DNA of 64,000 nt from Achromobacter ruhlandii. Lineage in GTDB: Bacteria; Pseudomonadota; Gammaproteobacteria; Burkholderiales; Burkholderiaceae_B. The stretch covers positions 62,001 through 126,000 of the forward strand of contig NZ_CADIJL010000013.1 in the NCBI RefSeq assembly GCF_902859695.1, written 5' to 3'. The position numbers and the translations under genes were made by a program. Position 1 is the first letter of the stretch. Each line of letters opens with the position of its first letter. The notes beneath the pieces were generated by a model. The model had not been told where the DNA came from and ran no database searches. It saw only the letters and a list, made by a program, of their open reading frames with translations. Positions 11,226-23,005 of this stretch are shown piece by piece.

Positions 11226-11241
11226 AGCAAGTCCCGTACCC
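11226..11241 (-). promoter_or_regulatory. sigma-54 (-24/-12) promoter for katE
   Basis: Minus strand reads GGGTACG-GGAC-TTGCT, matching TGGCACG-N4-TTGCW except the first base and C to T at the fourth; GG-N10-GC spacing is exact. Predicted transcript starts near 11215, giving a leader of about 60 bases. Confidence 0.6.
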
Positions 11242-11267
11242 GCGCCGCCGGCGCGTCCCCGCCCCCT

Positions 11268-11283
11268 GGGCACGCGCCTTGCT
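11268..11283 (+). promoter_or_regulatory. sigma-54 (-24/-12) promoter for galU
   Basis: GGGCACG-CGCC-TTGCT matches the consensus at every fixed base but the first, with exact GG-N10-GC spacing. Predicted start near 11295, about 20 bases before the galU ATG. It is back to back with the katE element, only 26 bases away. Confidence 0.7.
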
Positions 11284-11315
11284 TCATGAGGGTCCCGCCC
11301 TCAACGAGACCCGTC

Positions 11316-12161
11316 ATGCAACCCATCCGAATCGCGGTTTTCCCCGTCGCCGGACTCGGCACCCGCTTTCTGCCCGCCACCAAGGCCATGCCCAAGGAAA
11401 TGTTGCCCGTGGTGGACAAGCCCTTGATCCAGTATGCCGTCGAAGAAGCGATCGCGGCCGGCATCACTGAATTGGTGTTCGTCACCGGGCGCAACAAGCG
11501 TGCCATCGAGGACCACTTCGACCGGGTGCCCGAGCTGGAGCTCGATCTGGAAGCCAAGAACAAGGTCGCGCTGCTGGAGACGATCCGCAACGTGCTGCCC
11601 GCCCACGTCAACTGCGTCTACACGCGCCAGTCGACGCCGCTGGGGCTTGGCCACGCGGTGCTGTGCGCCGAACCGATCGTGGGTAACGAACCCTTCGTCG
11701 TGCTGCTGGCCGATGACCTGATCGATGCGCCCTTCCCCGTCATCGGCGAGATGATCAAGGTGGCGCGCGAATTCGAGGGCAGCACCCTGGCGCTGCAGCG
11801 CATTCCCCGCGAGCACTGCCGCCAATATGGCATCGTTGCTGGCGAGCCGGTCGCCGATGGCGTGCTGCGCCTGAACGGCATGGTCGAGAAGCCGGATCCC
11901 GCCGACGCGCCGTCGAACCTGGCGGTGGTGGGACGCTATGTGCTGGAGCCGGAGATCTTTGCCTGCCTGCGCCGAACCGCCGCCGGCGTGGGCGGCGAGA
12001 TCCAGCTGACCGACGGCATCGCCGCCCTGCTGCGCGAACGCCGCGTGTTCGGCCACGAGTATGACGGCGTCCGCTACGACTGCGGCAGCAAGGCGGGCTT
12101 TTACCAGGCCACGATGGAAATCGGTAAAAAGTACCACCAGCTCGGCACCGGTCACGCCTGA
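11316..12161 (+). CDS. galU: UTP--glucose-1-phosphate uridylyltransferase
   Basis: 281 residues, typical length. Makes UDP-glucose from UTP and glucose-1-phosphate. The nucleotide-binding loop GLGTRFLPATKAMPKEMLPV is near residue 11, followed by VDKPLIQYAVEEA, the FVTGRNKRAIEDHFD block and the C-terminal YDCGSKAGF motif. The very long open frame upstream on this strand is antisense to katE and is not part of the gene. Start chosen at MQPIRIAV, where the family begins; the ribosome site (GAG) is weak. UDP-glucose may feed glucan, trehalose or surface polysaccharide; the linkage with katE and the glycogen genes under the same promoter type is notable. Confidence 0.95.
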   Translation: MQPIRIAVFPVAGLGTRFLPATKAMPKEMLPVVDKPLIQYAVEEAIAAGITELVFVTGRNKRAIEDHFDRVPELELDLEAKNKVALLETIRNVLPAHVNCVYTRQSTPLGLGHAVLCAEPIVGNEPFVVLLADDLIDAPFPVIGEMIKVAREFEGSTLALQRIPREHCRQYGIVAGEPVADGVLRLNGMVEKPDPADAPSNLAVVGRYVLEPEIFACLRRTAAGVGGEIQLTDGIAALLRERRVFGHEYDGVRYDCGSKAGFYQATMEIGKKYHQLGTGHA

Positions 12162-20736: not shown

Positions 20737-21938
20737 CGCCCCCGCCGCTGGGCTGGCGCGACGGCAACCGCTACACCTTGCTGGAAAACGGCGAGGCCTA
20801 TTTTCCGGCGGTGCGCGCCGCCGTGGACGCCGCCAGCCGTGAAATCCTGGTCGAGACCTTCATCCTGTTCGACGACCCGGTCGGGCGCGATCTGCAACGC
20901 GGCCTGATCGCCGCCGCGCGGCGCGGCGTCAGCGTGGATGTACTGGTCGACGGCTATGGGTCGGACGCGCTGTCCGATGCGTTCCTGGCGCCGCTGACCG
21001 ACGCCGGCGTGCGCGTGCATCTGTTCGATCCGCGCCCGCGCCTGCTGGGCGTGCGCACCAACCTGTTCCGGCGCATGCACCGCAAGACCGTGGCGGTGGA
21101 CGGCGCCTGCGCCTTCATCGGCGGCATGAATTTCTCGGCCGACCACCTGCGGGACTATGGACCGGAAGCCAAGCAGGACTATGCGGTGCGGGTGGATGGC
21201 CCGCTGGCCTCGGACATCGCCGACTATGCCCGTGCCGCGCTCGGCGCGGGCCGGCGGCGCCGGCGGCGGCCCGGGCCCGTCGACGCCATGCCCGCCGGCG
21301 ACGGCGGCGGCCGCCTGGTGGTGCGCGACAACCACGACCACCCCACCGACATCGAACGCTACTACCGCGCCGGCCTGCGCGCGGCCCGCCACGATGTGCT
21401 GATCGCCAACGCCTATTTCTTCCCGGGCTATCGCCTGCTGCACGACCTGGCCAAGGCCGCCCGGCGCGGCGTGCGCGTGCGCCTGCTGCTGCAGGGCGAA
21501 CCCGACATGCTGGTGGCGCAGCTGGCCGCCAGCATGCTCTACGACTACCTGCTCGACGCCGGCGTGGAGATCTTCGAATACTGCAAGCGTCCGCTGCACG
21601 CCAAGGTGGCCTGTGTCGACCAGGACTGGTCGACCGTGGGGTCCAGCAACCTCGATCCGCTCAGCCTGGCATTGAACCTGGAAGCCAACGTGGTGGCGCG
21701 CGATACCGCCTTGAACGCCGCCCTGCGCGCCAGCCTGGACCGCCTCATCGCCCAGGACTGCCGGCCGGTGCGGATGCGGCCCGGCTCCCGGCGGCGCCTG
21801 CGCCGCTTGTGGGTCGGCGTGGTGGTGTTCCACTTCCTGCGGCGCTTTCCCGCCTGGGCCGGCGCCCTGCCGGCGCACAAACCGCGCCTGCGCACCCTGG
21901 ACGACAACAGTCCGCGGCGCGAAAGCGAGGCGCAATGA
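20733..21938 (+). CDS. clsB: cardiolipin synthase ClsB (phospholipase D family)
   Basis: 401 residues with two HKD motifs: HRKTVAVDGACAFIGG (about residues 116-131) and HAKVACVDQDWSTVGSSN (about 289-306). It condenses phosphatidylglycerol with a second phospholipid to cardiolipin at the inner membrane. An arginine-rich stretch (GRRRRRRPG) separates the halves. The start overlaps the ybhP stop (ATGA) and its own stop overlaps ybhN the same way. Cardiolipin content commonly rises in stationary phase and osmotic stress. Confidence 0.95.
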   Translation: MTPPPLGWRDGNRYTLLENGEAYFPAVRAAVDAASREILVETFILFDDPVGRDLQRGLIAAARRGVSVDVLVDGYGSDALSDAFLAPLTDAGVRVHLFDPRPRLLGVRTNLFRRMHRKTVAVDGACAFIGGMNFSADHLRDYGPEAKQDYAVRVDGPLASDIADYARAALGAGRRRRRRPGPVDAMPAGDGGGRLVVRDNHDHPTDIERYYRAGLRAARHDVLIANAYFFPGYRLLHDLAKAARRGVRVRLLLQGEPDMLVAQLAASMLYDYLLDAGVEIFEYCKRPLHAKVACVDQDWSTVGSSNLDPLSLALNLEANVVARDTALNAALRASLDRLIAQDCRPVRMRPGSRRRLRRLWVGVVVFHFLRRFPAWAGALPAHKPRLRTLDDNSPRRESEAQ

Positions 21939-22915
21939 GCCTGTATCGCTCCCGCCTGGCGCGGATCGCGCGTCACCGCTGGCCCCGGATCAAGCGCGTG
22001 CTGCCCTGGATCGTGCTGGCGCTGGTGGCCGCCCTGCTGGCGTATTTCGCCACGTCGGTCGACTGGCCCCAGGTGTGGCAGGCGGTACGCCGGATTCCGC
22101 GCGCCACCATCGCGCTGGCGGCCGCGTTGGTGGTGCCGGCCTATCTCGCCTATGCCTCGATGGACCTGCTGGGCCGCCGCTATGTCGGCCACGCGCTGCC
22201 CTGGCCCAAGGTACTGGGCGTGGCCATGCTGAGCTATGCGCTGAACCTGAACCTGGGCGTGCTGCTGGGCGGCCTGGGGGCCCGCCTGCGCCTGTATGCG
22301 CGGCTGGGTTGCCGCAAGGCCGTGGCCACGCGGGTGGCGGTGTTCTCCGCCGTCTCCAACTGGCTCGGCTACGGCTGGGTGGCGGGCCTGGTGTTCGCCA
22401 GCGGCCTGATCGTGGTGCCTGCCGGCTGGGAGATCGGCGGCGGCGTGCTGCGCCTGCTGGGCGTGGGCCTGATCGCCCTGGCCGCCCTCTACGTCTGGAT
22501 CTGCGCCCGCGCCACGCGCCGTTCGGTGCACTGGCTGGGCCAGCGCGTGAGCCTGCCGGGCGCGCGCATGGCCGCGCTGCAGAGCCTGACGGCGGCCCTG
22601 TCGTGGCTGTTGATGGGCGCCATCATGTATGTGCTGCTGCAAGGCAGGGTCAGCTATCCCGTGGTGCTGGGCATCCTGCTGTGCACGAGTTTCGCGGCGG
22701 TGGTGACGCGGGTGCCGGGCGGACTGGGCACTACCGAGGCGATCTTCGTGGCGGCCCTGTCGCCCCGGCTGCCTGCCGCCGAGGTGCTGGGCGCGGCCCT
22801 GGGCTATCGCGCCCTGTACGCGCTGGCGCCGCTGTGCCTGGCCCTGCTGGCGTTCATGCTGGTCGAGCTGCGCCTTGCCTGGCGCAAGCGCCACACCCTG
22901 GCCCGCGCGCGCTGA
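21935..22915 (+). CDS. ybhN: YbhN/UPF0104 (lysylphosphatidylglycerol synthase TM region) membrane protein
   Basis: 326 residues with about eight hydrophobic helices, the family signature (NLNLGVLLGGLGARLRLY in the middle and VVTRVPGGLGTTEAIFVA near the C-terminus). No synthetase domain is attached. Relatives move or flip lipids such as lysyl-PG; E. coli YbhN is uncharacterised. Third gene of the overlapping ybhP-clsB-ybhN unit. It is followed by 155 bases with the glgA promoter. Confidence 0.9.
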   Translation: MSLYRSRLARIARHRWPRIKRVLPWIVLALVAALLAYFATSVDWPQVWQAVRRIPRATIALAAALVVPAYLAYASMDLLGRRYVGHALPWPKVLGVAMLSYALNLNLGVLLGGLGARLRLYARLGCRKAVATRVAVFSAVSNWLGYGWVAGLVFASGLIVVPAGWEIGGGVLRLLGVGLIALAALYVWICARATRRSVHWLGQRVSLPGARMAALQSLTAALSWLLMGAIMYVLLQGRVSYPVVLGILLCTSFAAVVTRVPGGLGTTEAIFVAALSPRLPAAEVLGAALGYRALYALAPLCLALLAFMLVELRLAWRKRHTLARAR

Positions 22916-22989
22916 GCCAGGATTACAAGATGCGGCAACAACGGCGCCCGCGCGCCGTCTCCCCCCTGGCGCGACGGGGCGCCAGGCCC

Positions 22990-23005
22990 GGGCATGGCAC
23001 TTGCG
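22990..23005 (+). promoter_or_regulatory. sigma-54-like promoter for the glgA-treY operon
   Basis: GGGCATG-GCAC-TTGCG: GG-N10-GC spacing exact, with one substitution in the -24 block (C to T) and a G at the last position. Weaker than the other six. Predicted start near 23016, 55 bases before glgA. Confidence 0.5.

Follow-up and report, generated by a model that had tools for sequence, protein, structure and literature searches.

Stress and storage promoters of Achromobacter ruhlandii suggest a purpose for a second sigma-54 factor

The general stress responses known so far run on sigma-70-type factors: RpoS, SigB and EcfG. A stretch of the Achromobacter ruhlandii genome raises the question whether a sigma-54 factor can hold such a post. 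The stretch, referred to as the window, spans 64,000 nucleotides of contig NZ_CADIJL010000013.1 (C13:62001-126000; the genome comprises 6.86 Mb in 86 contigs) and contains seven -24/-12 elements of the sigma-54 type, positioned before genes for a catalase, carbon storage enzymes and envelope proteins. An earlier note on the sequence took these genes for a general-stress set under sigma-54 control. Comparison across genomes supports this view: the genome carries two rpoN genes, and the elements follow the second, rpoN2. The seven elements are probably promoters for the RpoN2 polymerase, and RpoN2 appears to act as a general stress and carbon-storage sigma factor in a genome where no RpoS can be recognised. 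This reading is built on what the sequences provide, namely the elements and their conservation, the two rpoN genes, the activators linked to the second of them, and the genome-wide association between the element and a second rpoN.

The features of the window are listed below; gene starts here and throughout are the estimates of a simple gene caller.

8772..11153, minus strand: large catalase with a DJ-1-like C-terminus, KatE type (PF00199, PF06628, PF18011, PF01965)
11226..11241, minus strand: -24/-12 element GGGTACGGGACTTGCT before the katE-like gene; predicted transcription start ~11215; off the exact core, conservation not seen
11268..11283, plus strand: -24/-12 element GGGCACGCGCCTTGCT before galU; predicted start ~11294; exact core; kept in 6/6 genomes
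11316..12161, plus strand: galU-like nucleotidyltransferase (PF00483)
13677..13692, plus strand: -24/-12 element CGGCACGGCGATTGCT before mscS; predicted start ~13703; exact core; kept in 2/2 genomes with the gene in hand
13725..14804, plus strand: mechanosensitive channel, MscS family (PF00924, PF21088, PF21082)
17461..17967, minus strand: yciE-like DUF892 protein (PF05974)
18045..18060, minus strand: -24/-12 element CGGCACGGCGGTTGCT before the yciE-like gene; predicted start ~18034; exact core; weaker in two homologues elsewhere
18247..18717, minus strand: low-affinity iron permease family protein (PF04120)
18753..18768, minus strand: -24/-12 element GGGCACGCGGCTTGCT before the iron permease gene; predicted start ~18742; exact core
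19933..19948, plus strand: -24/-12 element AGGCACGGCACTTGCT before ybhP; predicted start ~19959; exact core; kept in 5/5 genomes
19981..22915, plus strand: ybhP-clsB-ybhN unit of endonuclease/phosphatase family, PLD-like and LPG-synthase-TM family proteins (PF03372, PF13091, PF03706)
22990..23005, plus strand: -24/-12 element GGGCATGGCACTTGCG before glgA; predicted start ~23016; kept in 6/6 genomes
23071..42056, plus strand: storage run of glgA, glgE-like, TreS-like and glgB-like genes, three further alpha-amylase-family genes and a 4-alpha-glucanotransferase gene, putatively a single transcript (Pfam: PF08323, PF11896, PF00128/PF16657, PF22019, PF02922, PF11941, PF02446)

All seven elements are present where the earlier note had placed them, with the GG-N10-GC spacing intact in each. 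The sequences GGCACG and TTGCT are complete in five (11269+, 13678+, 18045-, 18753- and 19934+), as had been claimed, and the katE and glgA elements deviate from this exact core. All are located outside called genes and face a start on their own strand at 72, 32, 32, 77, 35, 32 and 65 bp, in order of position, in agreement with the 20-80 bases reported previously. The consensus TGGCACG proposed for them was wrong in its first letter, as none of the seven has T at position -26. Exact GGCACG-N4-TTGCT occurs five times in the window against an expectation of 0.07, a number reached in none of 100 dinucleotide shuffles; TGGCACG-N4-TTGCW with two mismatches allowed occurs 14 times against 15.6 expected. 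The signal thus resides in the exact core, which was used in place of the loose pattern, the latter being dropped as evidence. A weight matrix derived from congener and local sites retrieves, at a threshold of 17 bits, exactly the seven elements in the 64 kb and no site in 40 kb of flanking sequence. Since the matrix was partly trained on window sites, the independent test is the exact-core count against the shuffles. The matrix finds no further element at 31162-42056, where the glgB-like, amylase-family and 4-alpha-glucanotransferase genes follow on the strand of glgA and glgE.

The absence of T at -26 proved an informative correction. Genome-wide pattern searches distinguished a V class with A, C or G at this position ([ACG]GGCACG-N4-TTGCT) from a T class of the TGGCACG form. 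A, C or G stands at -26 in each of the seven window elements and in the five exact elements of contig C43, which places them in the V class. The genome contains 21 V-class sites against 0 reversed-pattern controls, and 11 exact T-class sites, which precede glutamine synthetase and solute-binding proteins, among others. Seven genomes of the genus hold 123 V-class sites, and the 114 that lie within the fetched stretches were examined for placement: 96 are intergenic, and 52 have a start on the strand they face at 20-100 bp, compared with 2.6% of positions drawn at random from these stretches. With the strand reversed, 19 of the 114 sites fall at this distance from a start, which may reflect divergent pairs.

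Orthologous upstream regions were scored for the element on an ad hoc scale and compared with background quantiles; the orthologue counts include our own genome. The element is kept despite differing flanks before GalU (6/6 genomes), YbhP (5/5) and MscS (2/2). It precedes GlgA in 6/6 genomes, one distant genus among them, at 63-81 bp from the start, and is found at the rpoN2 locus before two proteins that belong to no known family (7/7 and 6/6) and before topoisomerase IB (5/5, with weaker matches in three). The internal operon genes ClsB, YbhN, GlgE and TreS-like score near background. In six orthologue upstream alignments the -24/-12 block stands out, together with an opposing block in divergent pairs. 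Elsewhere in the genome, two divergent exact elements on contig C22 are shared by Ku-LigD and CinA, and the five exact elements of C43 lie within 18 kb, one of them before topoisomerase IB; the matrix adds further sites on C43, including those upstream of a DJ-1 protein and of an SDR. A CsbD-family gene in a congener also carries such an element. The lack of excess of the loose pattern would suit chance matches, or a repeat unrelated to promoters that resembles the sigma-54 pattern by coincidence. The excess of the exact core, the strand-aware placement and the conservation within divergent flanks make this explanation very improbable.

The two rpoN matches of the genome are located at C53:6547-7920 and C43:24641-26056, the second being rpoN2. 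Its product possesses all three sigma-54 domains (PF00309, PF04963, PF04552) and exceeds the TIGR02395 cut-off, and is therefore described here as a variant RpoN; its RpoN box reads ARRTVSKYRG, not ARRTVAKYRE. The RpoN2 proteins of its nearest named relatives belong to Achromobacter species (73-86% identity). The earlier note had proposed a check for rpoS, which yielded no match over the model cut-off in this genome (the best scores 281 bits against 378.7) or in any of 151 genomes of the family, with a positive E. coli control. RpoS and EcfG govern similar general stress targets, including catalase, Ku-LigD, YciE, trehalose and glycogen genes and CsbD-like proteins, and differ from RpoN2 in being sigma-70-type factors without ATP-driven activators. 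The gene list of the window does resemble the RpoS targets of E. coli, as it would in an ordinary RpoS regulon with coincidental elements. With no rpoS above the cut-off here or in the family, this alternative is scarcely credible, and it was rejected.

Across the family, V-class elements follow the presence of a second rpoN. The 151 genomes comprise 69 with two rpoN genes, 61 with one and 19 with none, while 2 with at least three matches were kept apart. The density of V-class sites amounts to 1.93, 0.66 and 0.36 per Mb with two, one and no rpoN, against 0.43, 0.38 and 0.33 per Mb for the reversed-pattern controls. The difference between two- and one-rpoN genomes is pronounced (rank test, p 1e-13); relatedness is corrected for only by a comparison within the nine genera that hold both states, seven of which agree (Wilcoxon p 0.02). 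The V-class excess over control is absent in 29 of the 61 one-rpoN genomes. The T class behaves differently, its density being lower, not higher, in two-rpoN genomes (0.60 against 1.06 per Mb). The two classes also differ at a position outside the search pattern: in the genus, the third spacer nucleotide is a purine in 107/123 V sites against 21/52 T sites, or 60/74 against 15/32 when unique strings are counted (p 0.0009). Two own-genome sites, C6:72713+ and C15:96935+, read TGGCACG with the spacer CGGC and stand upstream of a DUF883 gene and of an antibiotic-biosynthesis-monooxygenase-family gene. Position -26 alone hence fails to sort the classes; as a perfect marker it was rejected, and it represents a strong tendency only.

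The RpoN box reads the -24 element, and it is here that the second copies diverge. A literature search on the RpoN box in promoter specificity gave no paper, and a further one listed structural studies. In a FastTree phylogeny of 77 RpoN proteins, 28 second copies form one clade with local support of 0.998, which includes RpoN2 of Burkholderia multivorans and B. stagnalis. The box glutamate is missing in all 28, and Ser or Thr replaces the preceding Ala in 27; the other 49 proteins of the tree all read AKYRE. The tree took in 7 of the 48 loci from the comparison of named-relative RpoN2. Among those left out, the distant L302 has Asp in place of the glutamate, and L299 and L301 gave no box.

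The earlier note had placed the activator outside the window, and the likely candidates adjoin rpoN2 on contig C43. On one side of the gene lies a hybrid GAF/PAS histidine kinase, and on the other two activators, the first of 306 amino acids and without a receiver domain, the second of 456 amino acids with a receiver, an AAA+ domain and a Fis-type helix-turn-helix. Both contain PF00158 and PF02954 and carry the loop GSFTGA instead of GAFTGA, while the other six strong activators of the genome have GAFTGA or GAFSGA. The GSFTGA form of the loop is known from other activators (PMC4676750, PMC11999139). At least one of the two activators occurs within the fetched stretches at 14 of 19 rpoN2 loci, with 2 loci cut by contig ends and 3 without, against 0 of 22 rpoN1 loci. 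Thirty named rpoN2 loci (27 from Achromobacter, 2 from Bordetella and 1 from Pigmentiphaga), one of which ends before its activators, contain 58 activators found by motif, and all 58 carry GSFTGA; the same loci yield 66 sites of the V class and 6 of the T class, against 0 reversed controls. These associations suggest that the linked activators serve the V-class promoters. The Fis-type helix-turn-helix of both includes a nearly identical stretch, KTLYNRL. The hybrid kinase (L043:11062-14073), which has GAF, PAS and a receiver of its own, is found beside rpoN2 in 7/7 genomes of the genus and in one further genome (G103), and is likely the sensor.

Genes of the presumed regulon travel with rpoN2. 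In one genus (g24, locus L132), rpoN2 and both activators adjoin glgA and glgE. The rpoN2 island of B. multivorans encodes two DUF892 proteins, DUF4142, Ku, LigD, a type 1 glutamine amidotransferase-domain protein and treY-malQ, and it holds six sites of the form [ACG]GG[CA]ACG-N4-TTGC[TG], all ending in G and located 34-62 bp from gene starts, against 0 reversed controls; B. stagnalis has two sites of this form. Among 47 genomes hand-picked from the 151, glgA is present in 21 of the 25 with two rpoN genes and 1 of the 22 with one (Fisher p 2e-8, not tree-corrected). The upstream regions of these 21 glgA genes contain, within 220 bp of the estimated start, an element scoring at least 13 in 16 genomes and 10-11 in 2, and none in 3; one genome (G024) is counted both here and among the six of the GlgA orthologue set. 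The sole one-rpoN genome with glgA (G008) has no element before the gene. The prominence of storage genes could mean that the promoters are real and the regulon concerns carbon/nitrogen balance or storage, with the stress genes as passengers: galU and glgA are among the best-conserved targets, glgA co-occurs with a second rpoN gene, and minimal medium induces rpoN2 in Ralstonia (PMC4371752). Like elements before catalase, Ku, CinA, topoisomerase IB, DJ-1 and the congener CsbD-family gene speak against a storage-only role, which we consider unlikely. Under RpoN2 the gene set would presumably respond to stress.

A number of observations count against the assignment of these promoters to a dedicated RpoN2 system. 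Conservation of the element is incomplete before Ku (3/5 genomes), CinA (4/5) and KatE (1/2); the KatE element scores 21.7 here, and that of the sole other KatE examined (G045) 17.0, under the 90% background quantile of 17.7. The two-rpoN genera g11 and g43 have either no element before glgA or one of the T type, in 4 of 4 genomes. The exact V core is missing from the Burkholderia loci L253 and L254, where sites end in TTGCG. The V-class excess over control is absent in 8 of the 69 two-rpoN genomes, one-rpoN genomes contain 133 V-class sites against 77 control sites, and the mixed genera g2 and g37 show the opposite direction. A TGGCACG site precedes the DUF883 gene in our own genome. Of the 12 rpoN2 loci from outside the genus, 8 have at least one activator nearby, 3 have none (G035, G002, G061) and the remaining one runs into a contig end. 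In Ralstonia, an AcoR-like activator carrying GSFTGA has been assigned to the use of ethanol, for which rpoN1 is needed (PMC4676750), and the idea that GSFTGA is exclusive to RpoN2 activators is rejected on this account. A shared enhancer was not found by a k-mer and dyad search of 69 upstream regions, nor do the six orthologous upstream alignments have an enhancer-like block in common. These searches showed no shared enhancer motif within 200-220 bp upstream of the V-class sites of the seven genomes, a span that includes the 80-150 bp at which enhancers are expected.

Another challenge comes from RpoN1. This paralogue might use the sigma-54 promoters, alone or on an equal footing with RpoN2, rpoN2 being only a neighbour gained together with the island. 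The core of the element is the general sigma-54 core, and RpoN2 of B. pseudomallei and of Ralstonia complements an E. coli rpoN mutant (PMC4745423, PMC4676750), so that promoter recognition overlaps. Gel shifts in Bradyrhizobium likewise show each paralogue binding the majority of the promoters tested (PMC13207237), and expression of Ralstonia rpoN2 needs rpoN1 (PMC4371752). Yet it is the V class that rises with the second rpoN and not the TGGCACG class, the purine preference in the spacer separates the classes, and the RpoN box splits the sigma factors. Service by RpoN1, alone or together with RpoN2, is thus unlikely, and we infer that RpoN2 rather than RpoN1 uses the elements.

Under control by RpoN2, its holoenzyme would bind [ACG]GGCACG-N4-TTGCT as a closed complex, and the two rpoN2-linked activators would open this complex with ATP at V-class promoters. 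A signal would reach the receiver-type activator through the hybrid GAF/PAS kinase, which probably feeds it; the receiver-less activator may be constitutive or titrated. The output of the window would consist of catalase, MscS, YciE, the iron permease, YbhP-ClsB-YbhN and the GalU/GlgA/GlgE storage pathway, and that of other loci would add Ku-LigD, CinA, topoisomerase IB, the DJ-1 protein and small proteins. In functional terms the output would take in catalase, the repair of DNA ends, protection of envelope and ions, and storage as glycogen or trehalose. We tentatively suggest that an insulated sigma-54 channel has replaced the stress role of RpoS in part of Burkholderiales, characterised by RpoN2 with a changed box, promoters lacking T at -26, linked GSFTGA activators of its own, possibly no fixed enhancers, and regulon genes, glgA for one, that come and go with rpoN2. 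The link between a GSFTGA activator of Ralstonia and a function that depends on rpoN1 slightly lowers our confidence in this broader scheme.

Sigma-54 paralogues are already known to divide their labour; here the division would take on a new job. The closest published case is RpoN2 of B. pseudomallei, likewise a second sigma-54: katE expression is undetected in the rpoN2 mutant, complementation restores activity, and a site is predicted before katE (PMC4745423). An element precedes katE here too. The cases differ in that the evidence there, at both transcript and activity level, concerns katE alone, in a bacterium that possesses RpoS; the available text of the report describes no wider stress regulon, promoter variant or activators (PMC4745423). 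The likeness runs through the clade position of B. multivorans and B. stagnalis, not through the B. pseudomallei sequence itself. RpoN2 of Ralstonia solanacearum is also a second sigma-54, not interchangeable with RpoN1 (PMC4371752, PMC4676750), and the GSFTGA activators Rsp1667 and Rsp1668 have RpoN2 (Rsp1671) named among their putative targets (PMC4676750, PMC4371752). It differs in that its role is called enigmatic (PMC4371752), and we liken it by description, not sequence; the available text of PMC4371752 mentions neither stress nor catalase, and that of PMC4676750 does not mention stress. RpoNp of Bradyrhizobium sp. DOA9 is a stress-linked second sigma-54 with a predicted shift from TGG to CGG at -24; it comes from an alphaproteobacterium, shifts from TGC to CGC at -12 as well, and has no linked activators in the accessible part of the report (PMC13207237). 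The paralogues RpoN1-RpoN3 of Cereibacter (Rhodobacter) sphaeroides each have their own activator and genes, but the separation of RpoN1 from RpoN2 depends on position -11 and activator contacts, and their jobs are nitrogen fixation, flagella and a CtrA repressor (PMC11999139). In B. pertussis the role of sigma-54 has been called not yet explored (PMC11722255). Beyond the papers cited, the literature matches listed include no sigma-54 general stress regulon of such breadth.

If true, a sigma-54 stress response would tie the genes of survival and storage to an activator powered by ATP. RpoN2 of Ralstonia would gain a testable role, and the katE effect of B. pseudomallei would fall inside a wider regulon. 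The paired changes in the RpoN box and at -26 would permit a direct test of how promoters are divided among sigma-54 paralogues. The fit between the stress and storage promoters and a dedicated second sigma-54 suggests what the second copy may be for.

Two minor observations concern individual elements. Upstream of galU in one congener (G075), a V-class element has a T-class element 49 bp away on the opposite strand (C1:4114954- and C1:4115003+). In the window, a weak possible eighth element, GGGAACAGGGATTGCG, lies at 12238-12253, 61 bp before a DUF4142 gene at 12315; it scores below 11.5 bits by the matrix, and homologues of the gene in relatives are preceded by better matches.

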